Origin: Chloroflexota bacterium
GTDB taxonomy: Bacteria > Chloroflexota > Anaerolineae > Anaerolineales > Villigracilaceae
DNA: 64,000 nucleotides
NCBI GenBank assembly: GCA_016234485.1
Contig: JACRBL010000046.1
Coordinates: 1-64,000 of the forward strand
Direction: 5' to 3'
Shown: in pieces, positions 22,730-33,248 of the stretch
Layout of the letters: each line of letters starts with the position of its first letter
How positions within the stretch are numbered: position 1 is the stretch's first letter
Notes under the pieces: generated by a model
Database searches by the model: none
Told to the model about the DNA's origin: nothing
Seen by the model: only the letters and a program-made list of their open reading frames with translations
Translations under genes and position numbers: made by a program

Positions 22730-23482
22730 ATGATTACGGACTACTTCCGCCCGCAGACTCTCGACGAAGCCCTCGCGCTCCTCTCCCGCCCAAACACCCT
22801 GCCCCTCGGAGGCGGCACGCTTCTTTCCCACCTTCAAGCGGACTCTGTCTCCGTGGTGGACCTCCAACGCCTCGGCCTGGACTCGCTCCGCGCCAAGGGA
22901 AATGAGTTGGAGATCGGCGCGACCGTCACGCTCCAACAACTTCTCGAATCCGAGCATTGCCCCGCCGCGTTGAAATCCGCGCTCAAATTGGAAGCGCCGT
23001 TAAATCTGCGAAATTCCGCGACAGTCGCTGGGACACTCGTCTCTTGCGATGGACGATCCAGTTTTGCAACTGCACTGCTCGCGCTGGATGCGAAGATCGA
23101 GCAGGCGATATACGATAATTCGATAATCGTATATCGAGTATCGAATATCGGGGAATACATGCCTTTACGTTCGACAAAACTCATTACCAAAATCACAATT
23201 CCGCTCAATGCCAAACTTGCCTTTGAATACGTCGCGCGGACGCCGTCCGATAAGCCAATTGTCTGCGCAGCGCTCGCGCAGTGGGGCGGAAAACGCGCCC
23301 GTCTCGCGGTGGGCGGCTGGGGAAAATCGCCGTCCCTCGCGATGGACGGAACCGAGGCCGAGGGTCTCGAATCCGCCGCGCAGAACGCCTGTCACGAAGC
23401 GACGGATGATTGGGCCTCCGCCGAATATCGCATGGATGTCGCGTCCACGCTGGCGAAGAGATGTTTGGTAGCGCTTCAATAA
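22730..23482 (+). CDS. FAD-binding subunit of a molybdenum hydroxylase (CoxM/XdhB-like)
   Basis: This 250-residue subunit should hold FAD and pass electrons from the Mo/Fe-S subunit to an acceptor. The first FAD motif is present as 'LPLGGGTLLSHL' (about 23-34). The second is weak: 'NSATVAGTLVSCDGR' has AG where homologues have GGN. The C-terminal domain is shorter than usual (typical length is 270-290). Residues about 126-140 are encoded by a palindromic repeat (23106-23150). AAAGGAG precedes the ATG. Two small membrane-protein genes separate it from the catalytic subunit at 24669-27665 in the same operon. Confidence 0.85.
   Translation: MITDYFRPQTLDEALALLSRPNTLPLGGGTLLSHLQADSVSVVDLQRLGLDSLRAKGNELEIGATVTLQQLLESEHCPAALKSALKLEAPLNLRNSATVAGTLVSCDGRSSFATALLALDAKIEQAIYDNSIIVYRVSNIGEYMPLRSTKLITKITIPLNAKLAFEYVARTPSDKPIVCAALAQWGGKRARLAVGGWGKSPSLAMDGTEAEGLESAAQNACHEATDDWASAEYRMDVASTLAKRCLVALQ
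23106..23150. repeat. Palindromic repeat captured in frame in the FAD-subunit gene
   Basis: CGATATACGAT (23106-23116) and ATCGTATATCG (23126-23136) form a perfect 11-bp inverted repeat with a 9-base loop, followed by AGTATCGAATATCG. It is AT-rich inside a GC-rich gene and encodes a Tyr/Ile/Asn-rich stretch (about residues 126-140). Confidence 0.8.
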
Positions 23483-23706: not shown

Positions 23707-24672
23707 ATGATCAAAATCACATCCTTCTATCCATTTGCAGGCTGGCTGAGAGTAACTCAGGAATTTTATGAGGATAAATTTATCGTCAAATCGAAATCCT
23801 TGACCTTCGAGCAGGAAACAGAATTTTCGTATGATCAAGTGGCTGAAATTTCCGATGCATACCAATCAACAAGCAGCCAAATGACTTTTGGGTTTTGGAT
23901 TGTGCTCATGGTTAGCGTCGCATTCCTTGTTGCCTGCAATCCGATATGCGCCAACATCGCCCTTCTCCGAAGTGTCCAAATAATTTATATGTGTGGGGTT
24001 TTGTTGTTCCTCACTGGCTACATCAAAGGTTGGTATATTCTTTTAATAGACAACGACGGCAGCATTCTGACCACCATCAAACAGACATCACGTAATCACG
24101 AATCAATTTCTCAAATCACAGAGTTGATTAAAAACAAGTCAAATAAGGTTGAGGAAATATCAGTGACGGCGCCATTTCCCAATGAAAAGCCAGTGTTCGA
24201 GTATATTTATTATGATGCTTCCAATTTAACCAAGACAACCGATAGATTCTACGAAAAGGAAATGGTCGGTTTCGAAAAGGGCATTTTTTACGAGAGGGCT
24301 TACACAATTAAATATTCCGAGTTAGGTGGAAAACAAATTAAAGGAGCAAAGGGAATTAATTTTTTTGGAGGGTTCTTTACCATATTTGCTTTTGTCTTTT
24401 TTTCCGCGGCTGGTCTATACCGAGCATTTAACATCCTGCCTCGATTTATATTTGACCATACCTATTATGCGTTTCTAGCTTTATTAGCCCTCACTTTTTT
24501 ACTGCAATTCGTAAAACGAGAAACAATTGGGCTATACAGCAAAAATGAAAAACTAAAATATTGGGCGTATGTCAATCGGGGAGAGAAAGAAAAAGTCAAC
24601 AAGATCGTCGATTTCATCCAATCGCGCGTCCCCGCAGAAAACAAAGAAGCCTCTCCCAAGGAGACACAATGA
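23707..24672 (+). CDS. Internally duplicated membrane protein of unknown function
   Basis: The protein is 321 residues and visibly AT-richer than its neighbours, so it may be a later arrival. Both halves share one layout. A beta-rich segment starts with FYE (20-48 'FYEDKFIVKSKSLTFEQETE', 181-211 'FYEKEMVGFEKGIFYERAYT'). A pair of membrane helices follows (about 60-78 and 88-108; 218-238 and 250-270). Each half ends in a strand-helix segment (108-144 and 272-307, ending ITELIKNK and IVDFIQSR). This looks like a duplicated PH-like domain plus two helices. The stop codon overlaps the start of the molybdenum hydroxylase gene in an ATGA, so it is translationally coupled to it. Confidence 0.78.
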   Translation: MIKITSFYPFAGWLRVTQEFYEDKFIVKSKSLTFEQETEFSYDQVAEISDAYQSTSSQMTFGFWIVLMVSVAFLVACNPICANIALLRSVQIIYMCGVLLFLTGYIKGWYILLIDNDGSILTTIKQTSRNHESISQITELIKNKSNKVEEISVTAPFPNEKPVFEYIYYDASNLTKTTDRFYEKEMVGFEKGIFYERAYTIKYSELGGKQIKGAKGINFFGGFFTIFAFVFFSAAGLYRAFNILPRFIFDHTYYAFLALLALTFLLQFVKRETIGLYSKNEKLKYWAYVNRGEKEKVNKIVDFIQSRVPAENKEASPKETQ

Positions 24673-27665
24673 ACCTCACCCTCCACATCAACGGCATTGA
24701 CCACCAAATCGAGACTCCCGTCCACACCACGCTCCTTTCCGCCCTGCGCGGACTGGGTTTCCACGGCGTGAAATTTGGCGACGAACACGGACTGACCGGC
24801 GTGGACACTGTCCTGCTGGATGGCCGTCCCGTTAACGCGGGGTCGTTGCTGGCCGCACAGGCCGAAGGTCACAAGGTCGCGACCATCGAAGCGCTCGGCG
24901 AGCATCCCGAACAAGGATGGAAAAAAACCGACGGACTCCATCCATTGCAAAAAGCGTTTGTAGAGAACGGCGCAATCCAGTGCGGATACTGCACGCCCGC
25001 GCAAATTCTGGCGGCGAAGGCGCTGCTGGAAAAGAATCCGAATCCGAGCGAGGCCGATGTCCGCGAGGCCATCTCTGGCGTGTTGTGTCGTTGCACGGGG
25101 TATCTTAAACCTGTGCAGGCGGTGTTGAGGGCCGCGGCGGAGATGCGCGGAGAAGAACAGGTCAATTGGGAATCGGTACATTGGGACTTGGGAAATCGGG
25201 GCGATCAGCCGACCAATTTACCCACCGACCAATTTACCAATGTTATGACCCGTCCAAAAGTGGTGGTCACGCCCGATAAGCAAACTTGGCAGACAGTGGG
25301 CAAGCCAGAAATTAAAGTGGACGCGGTGAAACTCGTGCAGGGCAAACCTGCTTTTGCCGCTGACTTGGAAAAGCGCGGACTGCTCCACGCCAAAGTTTTA
25401 CACTCGCCGCACGCGCACGCTCGCATCAAGCGGATAGACGCCCGCCGCGCGCGTGACCTGGAGGGGGTCGCGGCGGTACTGACGTGGTTGGACATCCCGC
25501 GCGTCGTCTACTCCACGGCGGGGCAGTCCGACCCGATCCCTGGGCCGCTGGATACGTTTTCGCTGGACCACAAAGTCCGCTTCGTGGGCGACCGCGTGGC
25601 GTTCGTCGCGGCGGAGACTCCTGAGATCGCGGAGAAGGCTTTATCGCTGATCGAAGTCGAATACGAAATCCTGCCCGCCATTTTGGATTTGCGCGAGGCG
25701 CTTAATAATCCGACCATTATCCACGACGAAACAGAATATGTGAACTTCGCGGATTCGCACCCCGCTAAAAATCTGGCCGCGGAGATCCGCATCGACATCG
25801 GCAACGTGGACAAAGGATTCGCGGAAGCAGATGAAATTTTTGAGGCCGAGTATATTGTGCCGAAGGTTCAACAGGCGCATATTGAGCCGCACGTGGCGGT
25901 GACGTATTGGGACGAGGACGACCGTCTCGTGATTCGCACGTCCACGCAGGTTCCGTTCCACGTGCGGAGAATGCTCGCGCCCGTGCTGGGACTACCCATC
26001 AAACGCATCCGCGTCATCAAGCCGCGCATCGGCGGCGGATTCGGTGGCAAACAGGAAGTGTTGATGGAAGACGTGGCCGCGCATCTCACCATCGCGACCA
26101 AGCGGCCTGTCATCTACGAATACACGCGCGAGGAAGAATTTATCGCGGCGCGTTCGCGTCATCCCATGCGCGTCAAAATGAAGACGGGCGTGAAGAAAGA
26201 CGGCACGATCACCGCCAATGAGATGTACGCACTTTCAGACACGGGCGCGTACGGCTGTCACGCGTTGACCGTGACGGGCAACACTGGGCACAAGTCCATG
26301 GCGTTGTACGTCGGCGATGGCGAATATCGGAAGAGTCCCAACATCCGTTTTTACGCGGACGTGGTCTACACCAACACGCCGCCCGCGGGCGCGTTCCGTG
26401 GCTACGGCGTGCCGCAGGGATATTGGCCGCTGGATCGTCACCTGGAAAAGATCGCCCGCGCGATGGGTTTCGACCCGATTGACTTCCGTTTGAAGAATGC
26501 CATCCACGCAGGCGAATATCATCCGTTCTCGACGGCGTGGAACGAAGGCCGCGAGCCGCGTCCCGAAATTATTCACACGGTTGGATTGGAACAATGTGTC
26601 GCGCAGGGCAAAGCCGCCATAGATTGGGATTCCAAATTCGGAAATGAAGCCTGGCATTCCACGCAATCGAAAATCCGAAGAGGCATCGGCATCGCGCTCG
26701 TCATGCAGGGAACGGCGATTCCGTATCTCGACATGGGCGGCGCGTCCATTAAGATGAACGATGACGGCTCGTTCAATCTGCTCGTCGGCGCGACGGATTT
26801 GGGGACGGGCTCCGACACCGTCCTTGCCCAGATGGCCGCGGAAGTGTTGGGCGTCCCCGTGGATGACATCCTGTGCTACTCATCCGACACCGATTTCACG
26901 CCGTTCGATGTTGGCGCGTACGCGTCCTCGACAACGTACATCTCAGGAACGGCCGCGACGAAGGCCGCGCAGATTTGCGCCGAGCGAATCAAGATTCGGG
27001 CGGCTAAAATGCTAAGTCGAAAGCCTGCCCTGAGCAACGTCGAAGGGTCGAAAGTCCAAGGTCAGGAAGGAGACCTTCGACCTGATGACATTCGACTTGC
27101 CAACCGAAAAGCATTTGCTCCCGATGGAAGTTTTGTGACTCTAGCCGAAATCGCGCTGGATACATTGCACAAGAGCGAGCAGGAACAGATCATGGGCGTC
27201 GCGAGTTACGTTTCGCCATCGTCGCCTCCTCCCTTTGCGGCACAGTTCGCCGAAGTGACGGTGGATACCGAGACGGGCGCGGTGACGGTGGACAAACTCG
27301 TCATGGCCGTCGACTCCGGCATCATCGTGAATCCGGCCACAGCGTCCGGACAGATCGAGGGCGGGATGACGCAAGCGCTCGGCTACGCGGTTTGCGAGGA
27401 GATGCGCTACGACGAGAAAGGTCAAGCCATTGAGCGCGATTTCGATCGCTATCACATCTTCCGCGCAGACGAGATGCCCGAATTGGAAACCATCTTTGTG
27501 GAAACGTTCGAGCCGACGCACCCGTTCGGGGTCAAGGCTGTGGCGGAAATCCCAATGGACGGGGTCGCGCCCGCGGTCGGCAACGCGATTCTCGATGCGG
27601 TTGGGGTCAATGTGGACGAGAATCCAGTCACGCCTGAGAGGGTGTGGCGCGCAATGCGAGCATAA
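24669..27665 (+). CDS. Fused 2Fe-2S / molybdopterin subunit of a xanthine dehydrogenase-family hydroxylase, ferredoxin cluster cysteines lost
   Basis: The protein is 998 residues. Residues 1-160 are the Fe-S subunit and about 195-998 the Mo-binding subunit of the xanthine dehydrogenase / aldehyde oxidase / CO dehydrogenase family, which oxidises a C-H bond with water. The second [2Fe-2S] site is intact (C105, C108, C140, C142). The N-terminal ferredoxin-type site has D38, T43, D46 and G58 exactly where the four cysteines belong. Mo-domain motifs are kept: 'IGGGFGGKQEV', 'GAFRGYGVPQG', 'GATDLGTGSDTVLAQ', and a Glu in 'AVAEIPMDG' at the usual catalytic position. Residues about 165-190 and 780-815 derive from repeats. 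The start at 24669 overlaps the upstream stop. The substrate is unknown. Confidence 0.9.
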   Translation: MNLTLHINGIDHQIETPVHTTLLSALRGLGFHGVKFGDEHGLTGVDTVLLDGRPVNAGSLLAAQAEGHKVATIEALGEHPEQGWKKTDGLHPLQKAFVENGAIQCGYCTPAQILAAKALLEKNPNPSEADVREAISGVLCRCTGYLKPVQAVLRAAAEMRGEEQVNWESVHWDLGNRGDQPTNLPTDQFTNVMTRPKVVVTPDKQTWQTVGKPEIKVDAVKLVQGKPAFAADLEKRGLLHAKVLHSPHAHARIKRIDARRARDLEGVAAVLTWLDIPRVVYSTAGQSDPIPGPLDTFSLDHKVRFVGDRVAFVAAETPEIAEKALSLIEVEYEILPAILDLREALNNPTIIHDETEYVNFADSHPAKNLAAEIRIDIGNVDKGFAEADEIFEAEYIVPKVQQAHIEPHVAVTYWDEDDRLVIRTSTQVPFHVRRMLAPVLGLPIKRIRVIKPRIGGGFGGKQEVLMEDVAAHLTIATKRPVIYEYTREEEFIAARSRHPMRVKMKTGVKKDGTITANEMYALSDTGAYGCHALTVTGNTGHKSMALYVGDGEYRKSPNIRFYADVVYTNTPPAGAFRGYGVPQGYWPLDRHLEKIARAMGFDPIDFRLKNAIHAGEYHPFSTAWNEGREPRPEIIHTVGLEQCVAQGKAAIDWDSKFGNEAWHSTQSKIRRGIGIALVMQGTAIPYLDMGGASIKMNDDGSFNLLVGATDLGTGSDTVLAQMAAEVLGVPVDDILCYSSDTDFTPFDVGAYASSTTYISGTAATKAAQICAERIKIRAAKMLSRKPALSNVEGSKVQGQEGDLRPDDIRLANRKAFAPDGSFVTLAEIALDTLHKSEQEQIMGVASYVSPSSPPPFAAQFAEVTVDTETGAVTVDKLVMAVDSGIIVNPATASGQIEGGMTQALGYAVCEEMRYDEKGQAIERDFDRYHIFRADEMPELETIFVETFEPTHPFGVKAVAEIPMDGVAPAVGNAILDAVGVNVDENPVTPERVWRAMRA
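25162..25240. repeat. Heptamer-type and 16-bp tandem repeat captured in the Fe-S / Mo domain linker
   Basis: TTGGGA/TCGGTA-like heptads are followed by two 16-bp units sharing GACCAATTTACC (25211-25222 and 25227-25238). They encode about residues 165-190, the linker joining the Fe-S and Mo parts, where extra length is tolerable. Confidence 0.7.
27006..27110. repeat. Dispersed repeat captured in frame in the Mo-binding domain
   Basis: AAGTCGAAAG, GTCGAAGGGTCGAAAGTC, ACCTTCGACC and CATTCGACTT form overlapping inverted repeats. The encoded peptide includes 'KPALSNVEGSKVQG', about residues 780-815. Related GTCGAAAGTC sequence occurs between genes at 43362-43421, and TGAGCGAAGTCGAAG at 33358-33373. 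Confidence 0.75.
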
Positions 27666-31371: not shown

Positions 31372-32436
31372 ATGTCCCTCCCCAACCTCGACGGCAAATA
31401 CACCTCAGGCAAGCGCCGCAAAAAACTGTTCAGCGATTCGCCGCGGCGCAAAGTTGCCATTCCCGCCAGCATCGTCATCATCGGCATTCTGCTTCTGCTG
31501 TTTTGGCTGGTTCCCGTTTACACCATCGAGCCCGTCCTTCCCATCCAACCCGAAGACCTGCCCACCACCACGCCCGTCCCCACCCTCACGCCAACGCCCA
31601 CAGCCACATCCGTTTTCGCCAGTTTCGGCGGACGCATCGTCTTCACCTGCACGCGCGGCGAGATCAACCAAATCTGCGCCGTCAACGCAGACGGGACTAA
31701 CTACAAACAGATCACCGAGAGCGAGCGCAACAACTACTACCCCACCTTCACGCCCGATATGAAAGGCGTCGTCTTCGCGACCAACGAGGGCGACTACTTC
31801 GACCTCTTCCTGCTCAACTTCGACGACTCCAAACTCACCCGTCTCACCACCTACATCGGTAACGCCTTCTCGCCCAAATTCTCGCCCGACGGTTCCCAAA
31901 TCCTCTTCCTCAATTTGACAAAAGACACACACGCCTCTCTCTGGAGCATGGGCGGGCGCGGCGAAAACCCGCGCCTCCTCTACCTCGGGCCGCGCAAGAT
32001 CGTCGGCGCCGATTGGTCGCCCGACGGGAAGACGATTGCTTTCGCGATGGCCGCGGAGCAGGTCAACGCCTACGAGATTTTCCTCCTCAACGCCTCCGAC
32101 CCGACCGCGCCGCCGCGCCGCGTCACCCAGGCCATTGAGGGCGTGACGGGCAGCCTCGACTGGGCGCTGGACGGCAAGTCCCTGCTCCTGTGCATGGGAC
32201 CCGCCGGCGACAAGGACGTCTTCCGCCTCGACCTCGCCACGGGCAACGCCATCCAACTGACCTTTGGCGGCAACAACGCCTCCGCCTCCTACTCCCCCGA
32301 TGGACAATACATCGTCTACAACTCACTCCGCAATGACGGCCAGGCCGACCTCTTCATCGTCCGTGCGGACGGACACTCCACACGCCTGCTCCTCGACAAT
32401 CCCGAACCCGATTGGCAACCTGTGTGGGGGCCGTGA
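31372..32436 (+). CDS. Membrane-anchored PD40/TolB-type beta-propeller protein
   Basis: The protein is 354 residues. A basic N-terminus and one membrane segment (about 28-50) precede a Thr/Pro stalk (about 60-80) and a propeller of six or so WD40-like PD40 blades. The blades show the standard signature: 'SPKFSPDGSQILFLN', 'GADWSPDGKTIAFAM' and 'SASYSPDGQYIVYNS'. It should sit outside the membrane and bind protein or polysaccharide partners. The N-terminus is inside by the positive-inside rule. It follows the NTF2-like gene by 3 bases and precedes xdhC by 20 bases. Confidence 0.87.
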   Translation: MSLPNLDGKYTSGKRRKKLFSDSPRRKVAIPASIVIIGILLLLFWLVPVYTIEPVLPIQPEDLPTTTPVPTLTPTPTATSVFASFGGRIVFTCTRGEINQICAVNADGTNYKQITESERNNYYPTFTPDMKGVVFATNEGDYFDLFLLNFDDSKLTRLTTYIGNAFSPKFSPDGSQILFLNLTKDTHASLWSMGGRGENPRLLYLGPRKIVGADWSPDGKTIAFAMAAEQVNAYEIFLLNASDPTAPPRRVTQAIEGVTGSLDWALDGKSLLLCMGPAGDKDVFRLDLATGNAIQLTFGGNNASASYSPDGQYIVYNSLRNDGQADLFIVRADGHSTRLLLDNPEPDWQPVWGP

Positions 32437-32456
32437 AATCGGATAGAATCAAACCA

Positions 32457-33248
32457 ATGAAATCCATCTACCTCGCCCTCTCCGAACTCGAATCAAACAA
32501 TGGCTCCGCCGCTTTATGCACGGTCGTCAAAAGCGAAGGCTCCACGCCGCGGCATGTGGGCAGTAAAATGCTGGTCTATCCCGATGGAAAATTCATCGGC
32601 ACAGTCGGTGGCGGGGAATTGGAGAATCGCGTCATCAAGGCCGCGAAAGAATCGCTGACAGATGAACAGCCGCGCCATCTGCACTACAACATGAACGATC
32701 CCTCGCGCGGCGACCCAGGCGTGTGCGGCGGACAAGTGGAGGTATTTGTGGAACCGATCCTTCCTGCCCCAATGGTGATCGTCATCGGCGCGGGACACGT
32801 GGGCAAGGCCGTGGCGCATCTCGCCAAGTGGATGGGATTTCGCGTGGCCGTCAGCGATGACCGCGCCGAATTTTGCAGCGCGGAGACCGTCCCCGATGCG
32901 GACGCATATTACCCCGTCGCAATGGACAAGTTGATGGAACACGTTAAAGTGACGCGGCAGACTTATTTGGTCCTCACCACGCGCGGGTCGAATGTGGACG
33001 CGGCAGGGCTAGGTCCGCTCCTCGAAACAGAGGCCGCCTACATCGGAGTCATCGGGTCGAAGCGGCGGTGGCTGGAGACGGTCAAAGCGCTGAAAAAGCA
33101 GGGAGTGTCCGAAGCGAAGATCGCGAAAGTCCATTCCCCCATCGGGTTGGAGTTGCAAGCCGAAACGCCCGAAGAGATTGCCGTCAGCATCATGGCGGAG
33201 GTGTTGATGGTGAGGAACAAGGGGACGGGAAAAGTGATGAGCAAGTGA
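32457..33248 (+). CDS. xdhC: XdhC/CoxI-family molybdenum hydroxylase maturation protein
   Basis: This 263-residue protein belongs to the family that binds the molybdenum cofactor, aids its sulfuration and inserts it into xanthine dehydrogenase-type enzymes. The N-terminal domain has 'GSTPRHVGSKMLV', 'GTVGGGELENRVI' and the Cys-Gly-Gly motif at C90. The C-terminal Rossmann domain begins 'VIVIGAGHVGKAVAHLA' (about 107-123). The start at 32457 is chosen because the longer frame overlaps the previous gene. It probably serves the hydroxylase encoded at 22730-27665, about 5 kb upstream; no other client is visible in the window. Confidence 0.92.
   Translation: MKSIYLALSELESNNGSAALCTVVKSEGSTPRHVGSKMLVYPDGKFIGTVGGGELENRVIKAAKESLTDEQPRHLHYNMNDPSRGDPGVCGGQVEVFVEPILPAPMVIVIGAGHVGKAVAHLAKWMGFRVAVSDDRAEFCSAETVPDADAYYPVAMDKLMEHVKVTRQTYLVLTTRGSNVDAAGLGPLLETEAAYIGVIGSKRRWLETVKALKKQGVSEAKIAKVHSPIGLELQAETPEEIAVSIMAEVLMVRNKGTGKVMSK

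Follow-up and report, generated by a model that had tools for sequence, protein, structure and literature searches.

Replacement of the outer [2Fe-2S] cluster ligands in a clade of XdhD-like molybdenum hydroxylases of Chloroflexota

A 64,000-nucleotide stretch of a Chloroflexota genome (Villigracilaceae; assembly GCA_016234485.1, contig JACRBL010000046.1, positions 1 to 64,000), referred to as the window, encodes a fused iron-sulfur (Fe-S)/molybdenum (Mo) protein of the molybdenum hydroxylase family in which all four cysteines of one [2Fe-2S] cluster are replaced (Table 1). In known members of this family, electrons run from Mo through an inner and then an outer cluster to flavin adenine dinucleotide (FAD). 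We call the ferredoxin-type site outer and the helical-domain site inner; the labels Fe/S I and Fe/S II are ambiguous and are in use with opposite meanings. Fe/S I denotes the ferredoxin-type site in the accessible text of PMC12316806. At the level of sequence, the outer ligands of the window protein are lost, this loss is conserved throughout its clade, loss of the outer site, the inner site, or both recurs among relatives, and the FAD gene is kept in the window clade. On balance, and with some confidence, we favor reading the protein as an XdhD-like purine Mo hydroxylase or dehydroxylase that has lost the outer cluster and kept the inner ligands, the Mo site, and a FAD partner, within a group for which the two-cluster relay is dispensable and has been shed site by site.

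The outer cluster site lacks its four cysteines

The gene is an open frame of 998 amino acids (aa) that runs from an ATG at 24669 to a stop ending at 27665. Pfam matched Fer2_2, Ald_Xan_dh_C, MoCoBD_1, and MoCoBD_2 on its product, and family membership of the Mo domain is borne by MoCoBD_1/2 and the a/b hammerhead (260.7, 237.4, and 89.4 bits). The best NCBIfam match is TIGR03313, the family of Escherichia coli XdhD, at 681.5 bits with a cut-off of 1101.9 that is not reached; an XdhD relative from Cetobacterium also stays below this cut-off (1032.5 bits). The model of selenium-dependent xanthine dehydrogenase (TIGR03311) gives 417.2 bits, below its cut-off of 830.45, and the solved structures nearest by sequence are 1rm6, 1sij, and 1n5w. 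As judged from its sequence, the product is a variant of the xanthine oxidase family in which one defining feature, the outer cysteine set, is missing, and it falls outside TIGR03313 by score.

Residues D38 (24780-24782), T43 (24795-24797), D46 (24804-24806), and G58 (24840-24842) stand in the alignment columns that hold the four outer-cluster cysteines in E. coli XdhC and cluster-bearing relatives, exactly where a preliminary description of this DNA had placed them, and residues 1-104 contain no cysteine. The codons (GAC, ACC, GAC, and GGG) are each two bases away from TGC/TGT, in agreement with the earlier claim of at least two base changes per substitution. The same description had called the second cluster (C105, C108, C140, and C142) and the Mo site intact, and both statements hold: the four inner cysteines are present in the sequence, within a Fer2_2 match of 96.4 bits, and the Mo-site residues Q427, R577, and E960 are invariant in 51 aligned rows. 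We take E960 to be the catalytic Glu of xanthine-oxidase-family enzymes.

Pfam Fer2 (PF00111) gave no match on the window domain, E. coli XdhD, or the relative L146, and it matches relatives with an intact outer site (L086, L084, and L140: 34.4, 28.9, and 34.7 bits). On the Cetobacterium XdhD it reaches only 14.5 bits, below the cut-off of 21, even though the four cysteines are present. An AlphaFold2 model of the first 165 residues, built from 33 rows, has a mean predicted local distance difference test (pLDDT) score of 82, and its weakest blocks are residues 31-40 (59) and 81-90 (54). The modeled domain resembles cluster-bearing subunits, e.g., 1rm6_C (E 1.1e-13, template modeling score 0.73-0.77, root-mean-square deviation 5.0), and the Fe-S domain is predicted to fold as these subunits do.

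Clade-wide conservation of the replacement

The close-homologue set comprised the window protein and the best 80 of 567 confirmed relatives (81 rows); the record titles of the retained relatives are mostly Anaerolineales, Anaerolineae, or Chloroflexi. Three rows (L060, L076, and L078), for which the best frame lacks the N-terminus, are gapped at positions 38, 43, and 46, leaving 78 readable rows. In 76 of these, the motif is D-[ST]-D followed by G, A, or S at position 58, and the four outer cysteines are kept in two, L084 and L086 (L084 prints as GCCC owing to a one-residue insertion, with all four cysteines present). Because 76 of 78 readable close homologues share D-[ST]-D-[GAS], an assembly error or local oddity is ruled out, as is the sequencing slip that the preliminary description had argued against. 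It had also suggested that aligned homologues might form a clade with the same replacements and a conserved Mo domain, and such a clade is what these 76 rows constitute.

The amino acids at D38 and D46 are held while their codons drift (GAC in 40 and GAT in 36 rows at D38; GAC in 37 and GAT in 39 rows at D46). The outer loop (residues 33-63) and the Mo domain are equally conserved, with mean majority shares of 0.872 versus 0.865 in 51 rows. D38, E39, and D46 are each found in 17/17 window-clade rows, and outer-site loss was read in all 25 sampled clade genomes. The alignments thus confirm the loss of the outer [2Fe-2S] ligands as a real, clade-wide trait of these sequences.

Loss of cluster sites among relatives

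Of 400 Chloroflexota genomes searched at the protein level, 198 had matches at E 1e-100, with two candidates scored per genome. In an 89-row alignment, rows outside the window clade are mostly CCCC/CCCC (outer/inner site). Five rows read S-T-A-D / S-[SA]-[CD]-E and have lost both sites, two of them retaining Cys140, and one locus, L140, has an intact outer site and a lost inner site. Because L140 alone could be accidental, 48 genomes of its order were searched, of which 42 matched, and 15 loci were returned. Nine of these loci (L140 and L190-L197) encode mirror-image enzymes with the outer cysteines kept and the inner ones replaced by S-[DE]-[SA]-E; both sites are lost in the other six. Inside the window clade, L081 and L088 additionally lack three of the four inner cysteines. 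The sampled Chloroflexota relatives hence cover all four combinations, from both sites intact through loss of the outer or of the inner one to loss of both.

All eight Fe-S cysteines are missing from E. coli XdhD (D-A-D-S / S-N-S-D; its outer loop is one residue longer, and the first position was placed by mafft among its neighbors). Its sister in the trees, the Cetobacterium XdhD (L178:7992-10856; 45% identical), keeps all eight. The E. coli K-12 xdhD gene (L089:7317-10187) is annotated as an Fe-S binding subunit despite lacking all eight cysteines. Outside Chloroflexota, 40, 15, and 15 of 1292, 1050, and 1281 matching records were taken from plasmid listings, and cysteines were read in five loci (L100-L103 and L178). 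Of the new subtype proposed earlier, the conserved outer-lost clade stands, but the pattern is wider: it includes relatives without the inner site or without either site, as well as E. coli XdhD, in which no cysteine of the eight remains.

All trees were built from Mo-domain columns only. By parsimony, a 76-row tree (which took 12 of the best-80 loci; the window's own copy and near-duplicates, 16 loci in all, were removed) has four changes at the outer and four at the inner site, and a tree of 66 chosen rows has six and four; both trees are quick searches, and the counts are blind to loss versus gain. We read the direction as loss because outgroup rows keep their cysteines. A conservative count gives four losses at the outer site (the window clade, the S-T-A-D clade, the both-lost clade of the L140 order, and E. 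coli XdhD) and four at the inner site (L081/L088, the L140 order, the S-T-A-D clade, and E. coli XdhD). That the outer site was lost once, with the window and S-T-A-D clades as one group, was rejected (p-AU 1.35e-43) in an approximately unbiased (AU) test on 33 chosen rows, with the tested groups named after a tree was seen. In the 33-row tree, the window clade without L086 forms one side of a branch, with weak support (61/94). The cysteine-bearing L086 pairs with the outer-lost L080 in the 76-row tree (93) and has no resolved place in the 33- and 66-row trees; because it groups with an outer-lost row, the window clade may hold more than one outer-site loss, or a regain by recombination.

All four lineages with inner-site loss have Ser105 and Asp/Glu142. 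Ser105 is weak evidence of convergence because Ser is one base from Cys; Asp/Glu requires at least two. D38 and D46 are common to the window clade and E. coli XdhD and are absent from the other two outer-lost clades. The converging replacements may reflect a filling of emptied cluster loops.

FAD subunit and neighboring genes

The FAD gene lies 1.9 kb upstream of the Fe-S/Mo gene. Its best NCBIfam match is TIGR03312 (YgfM) at 74.7 bits, with a cut-off of 241.5 that is not reached. An orthologue is present in all 25 clade genomes (57-81% identical, apart from the window's own), and in 22 of them its start is no more than 15 kb from the Mo gene. The earlier idea of an enzyme that no longer uses the FAD subunit in the usual way, read as loss of that subunit, is thus not supported, and FAD-subunit loss was rejected for the window clade. 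It is also unlikely for the inner-lost and both-lost genomes: 19 of 20 have a FAD_binding_5 open reading frame (ORF) of a low-scoring class (63-97 bits), and the sole exception in which none was found is G422 (83% complete). These divergent ORFs adjoin the Mo gene in three genomes (G184, G139, and G264). Among the 16 compared, T[VIL]GG is intact in all and GG[TA] of the first motif in 15. They may well be the partners of the inner-lost and both-lost Mo enzymes, in which case the chain would be broken mid-way while both ends persist.

A Gly-to-Ala change in the TIGG motif of window-clade FAD subunits was considered as a sign of a changed flavin site and dropped because loci with both sites (L129, L157, and L167) have AG and both-lost loci (L146, L148, and L149) have GG. 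As a separate observation, L134, L135, and L136 keep both clusters, and the nearby FAD ORF has SL[STL]N in place of TIGG (in L134 also LAGAT), which is the opposite kind of decay to cluster-site loss.

In the window, the FAD and Fe-S/Mo genes are separated by a gene that has no Pfam or NCBIfam match at E 0.001 and no blastp match at E 0.001 among the ORFs of 80 loci. The start-to-start distance between the FAD and Mo genes varies from 0.8 to 13.5 kb in relatives, which, together with this intervening gene, suggests that the pair has been split repeatedly. The XdhC/CoxI-type maturation protein encoded 4.7 kb downstream is probably linked to the Fe-S/Mo enzyme. The preliminary description had raised a separate, intact Fe-S subunit elsewhere in the genome as a possible partner; a Fer2_2 census of this 94%-complete genome revealed no spare Fe-S subunit, each of its four Fer2_2 domains lying beside or being fused to its own Mo subunit.

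Table 1. Features of the window around the Fe-S/Mo gene.
Feature	Position	Strand	Basis
FAD-binding subunit, 250 aa, YgfM-like	22730..23482	+	Pfam FAD_binding_5, 78 bits; NCBIfam; orthologues
321-aa gene without family match, between the FAD and Fe-S/Mo genes	23707..24672	+	Pfam/NCBIfam, blastp
Fused Fe-S/molybdenum-binding subunit of a molybdenum hydroxylase, XdhD-like, outer [2Fe-2S] ligands replaced	24669..27665	+	ORF, Pfam, NCBIfam, alignment
Outer (ferredoxin-type) cluster site, D38/T43/D46/G58 in place of four Cys	24780..24842	+	Alignment to 80 loci, E. coli XdhC, and Cetobacterium XdhD
Inner (helical-domain) [2Fe-2S] site, C105, C108, C140, and C142 intact	24981..25094	+	Sequence; Pfam Fer2_2, residues 80-152
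E626, aligned with E. coli XdhD Glu606	26544..26546	+	Alignment
E960, conserved Glu	27546..27548	+	Invariant in 51 rows
XdhC/CoxI-type maturation protein	32412..33248	+	Pfam XdhC_C, 139 bits; XdhC_CoxI, 84.7 bits

Genomic context and candidate substrate

Purified E. coli XdhD-YgfM supplied with urate and NADH forms yanthine as the major product, according to the available part of PMC12507026, and a second account of urate reduction by this pair, likewise available in part, is given in PMC12990295. The accessible text of the former proposes that XdhD Glu606 orients urate and states that Chloroflexota have an F420-type enzyme in place of YgfK/UacX. The terms 2Fe-2S and cysteine are absent from the main text as accessible, and Fe-S occurs twice, about YgfK. 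In the window protein, E626 aligns with Glu606 and lies within an insert of about 10 residues that is missing from E. coli XdhA. This Glu is found in all 27 rows that lack the outer site and in 28 of 48 rows with both sites.

SsnA scores above its cut-off in 25/25 clade genomes versus 1/14 control genomes, and YqeB (TIGR03309) in 24/25 versus 1/14 (267.4 bits in the window's own genome); E. coli is among the controls positive for SsnA/YqeB. In 12/25 clade genomes, SsnA lies no more than 30 kb from the FAD or Mo gene, as counted with one place per genome and with preference, where two exceed the cut-off, for the one on the FAD/Mo contig. The neighbors of SsnA in the relative L183 include NpdG, CofE, CofD, and CofC, for each of which one or more models exceed the cut-off, and an F420-type oxidoreductase of the LLM class, which is below its cut-offs. 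The SsnA contig of the window's own genome carries CofD and the same kind of LLM protein. The F420 genes next to SsnA match the remark on F420-type enzymes of Chloroflexota in the accessible text of PMC12507026. SsnA, YqeB, the F420 genes, and the Glu626 insert point to a purine as the substrate, most likely urate/yanthine.

The window's own genome also encodes SelD (353.9 bits) and with YqeB shows the genome feature of selenium-dependent hydroxylases, in line with the class described by Haft and Self (PMC2276186, from the part available). Its selD gene (G000:C8:234851-235783) matches 309/311 positions and includes a single in-frame TGA, as do genes for SelD proteins that contain selenocysteine. 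Three other Mo enzymes of this genome could be the client of SelD and YqeB. One of them, a molybdenum hydroxylase and candidate selenium-dependent enzyme, is encoded at a locus of its own (G000:C48:57052-62869), where a 488-aa ORF that fuses FAD and Fe-S parts lies near YqeB.

Electron transfer and alternative explanations

The relay has a gap at the outer site in the window enzyme, at the inner site in L140-type enzymes, and at both in E. coli XdhD. We favor a flavin-to-Mo route that is independent of the relay because E. coli XdhD, which is without both sites, is reported to use NADH (PMC12507026, as far as accessible), and a rewired electron path is plausible. The flavin subunit would be fed by NAD(P)H or F420H2, and electrons would pass from the flavin to Mo without the canonical relay, which is the least certain part of the proposal. 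The flavin might dock closer, or electrons might tunnel straight to Mo or the inner cluster; such transfer would be slow, but anaerobic purine reduction would tolerate its rate. The Asp, Ser, and Glu replacements would occupy the vacated cluster loops, where they would satisfy the backbone amides previously directed at cluster sulfides.

Several observations weigh against an XdhD-like purine enzyme with a dispensable relay. The XdhA model scores 668.1 bits on the window protein, near the TIGR03313 score and also below cut-off, and the protein is far from XdhD in the trees; because of these scores and this distance, the urate assignment rests on context. SsnA of the window's own genome is on a different contig (C19), and this genome has three more Mo hydroxylases with eight cysteines (C42, C48, and C23), with YqeB near that of C48, so that SsnA and YqeB may serve other Mo enzymes; the SsnA/YqeB survey covered gene-bearing clade genomes and the 14 controls, not Chloroflexota without the window gene. 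The divergent FAD ORFs lie on another contig or 0.8 Mb away in 16/19 genomes, their best blastp matches are mixed, and higher-scoring FAD proteins, presumably of other Mo enzymes, occur in the same genomes; for these reasons, their partnership with the Mo enzymes is a putative one. The outer-site replacements vary by lineage (D-T-D-G, S-T-A-D, and S-D-S-I), and because of these differences no single chemical role for them is supported. The full-length AlphaFold2 model is poor (pLDDT 63), and with sequence-based evidence for the Chloroflexota members, the proximity of the flavin to Mo is a proposal.

The main rival is a closed-cycle Mo enzyme, in which one purine would oxidize and another reduce Mo at the same site by ping-pong transhydroxylation, the relay would decay, and the FAD subunit would serve as a structural clamp. 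The chain is broken whichever site is lost, and every combination of losses is found, as expected if electrons do not traverse it, and the Mo-site residues remain conserved. We nevertheless judge it unlikely: the flavin-site motifs retained in the FAD ORFs of inner-lost and both-lost genomes (T[VIL]GG in 16/16, GG[TA] in 15/16) are unexpected for a clamp, if these ORFs are the partners, and purified E. coli XdhD-YgfM makes yanthine from urate with NADH (PMC12507026, available part).

Improbable, too, is an atypical cluster or other metal held at the outer site by oxygen ligands (D38, E39, T/S43, and D46), through which an altered relay would persist. The presence of D38, E39, and D46 in all 17 window-clade rows compared and the recurrence of D38 and D46 in E. 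coli XdhD, an independent loss, would suit it. Against it, position 58 is Gly, Ala, or Ser, the first Cys of the window protein is residue 105, and the Asp pair is missing from the clades with S-T-A-D and S-[DA]-S-[IV]; to our knowledge, all-oxygen [2Fe-2S] ligation is not established. We give still less credence to a separate electron-transfer protein (a ferredoxin or an Fe-S subunit from elsewhere) that docks in place of the outer cluster: Desulfovibrio gigas aldehyde oxidoreductase does use an external flavoprotein (PMC12316806, in its accessible text), but all four Fer2_2 domains of the window's own genome belong to their own Mo subunits, in a census that did not extend to free ferredoxins, and docking leaves the inner-lost, outer-kept lineages unexplained. 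A degenerate, inactive paralogue drifting without function is barely credible: loss of a cofactor site is a usual first step of decay, but here the outer loop is conserved like the Mo domain, codons drift without aa change, the Mo-site residues are invariant, and a FAD partner occurs in 25/25 genomes.

Beyond the flavin-to-Mo reading of the window enzyme, we tentatively put forward a wider proposal that we regard as slightly on the doubtful side: the family in several Chloroflexota lineages and E. coli XdhD would run flavin-to-Mo or Mo-only redox chemistry with one or both clusters deleted, the lineages converging on Ser, Asp, and Glu, so that the Fe-S wire would be optional and replaced by a direct flavin-Mo route or a closed-cycle purine transhydroxylase.

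Molybdenum hydroxylases are a textbook case of a fixed cofactor wire of Mo, two [2Fe-2S] clusters, and FAD, and repeated site loss with persisting flavin partners questions the view that electrons must use the Fe-S part of it. The four combinations of site presence and absence form a natural deletion series that makes the need for each cluster testable and that also probes how far the flavin can reach toward Mo and whether electrons must leave the Mo site at all. We found no prior report of Fe-S ligand loss in this family among the titles and abstract openings listed, which cover the subscription literature in part. There is a related gap in the newly described anaerobic urate pathway, as the account of active XdhD-YgfM is, in its accessible text, silent on the missing Fe-S ligands of XdhD.

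Comparison with known systems

The window enzyme resembles E. coli XdhD-YgfM in combining a fused Fe-S/Mo protein with a short, separate FAD subunit, in the Asp residues at 38 and 46 and the common insert with Glu606/E626, and in the SsnA and YqeB families of its genome. Unlike the window protein, E. coli XdhD has also lost the inner cysteines (S-N-S-D), whereas the window protein is distant from it in the trees, is below the TIGR03313 cut-off, and has a relative (L183) with F420 genes near SsnA.

The three-part molybdenum hydroxylases E. coli XdhABC, 4-hydroxybenzoyl-CoA reductase, and carbon monoxide dehydrogenase (CODH) share with it the fold of the Fe-S domain, the domains of the Mo protein, and the family of the FAD subunit. 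In contrast to the window protein, E. coli XdhC carries both sites in the alignment (CCCC/CCCC), and both 4-hydroxybenzoyl-CoA reductase and CODH carry both cluster sites. For CODH, this is also stated in the accessible text of PMC12316806. The Desulfovibrio aldehyde oxidoreductase (MOP, 1sij) is likewise a single chain with the Fe-S domains followed by the Mo domain, yet it made the opposite choice, having both clusters and no FAD domain (PMC12316806, part available).

Homologues on haloarchaeal plasmids (Haloarcula, Haloterrigena, and Halalkalicoccus) are about 40-45% identical and are encoded near yqeB/selD or an F420 reductase gene; unlike the window protein, they have a separate Fe-S subunit, with 8/8 cysteines in the three that were read (L100-L102). 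The molybdenum hydroxylase loci of Clostridioides difficile vary in their FAD and Fe-S subunit genes, according to the accessible portion of PMC11448449.

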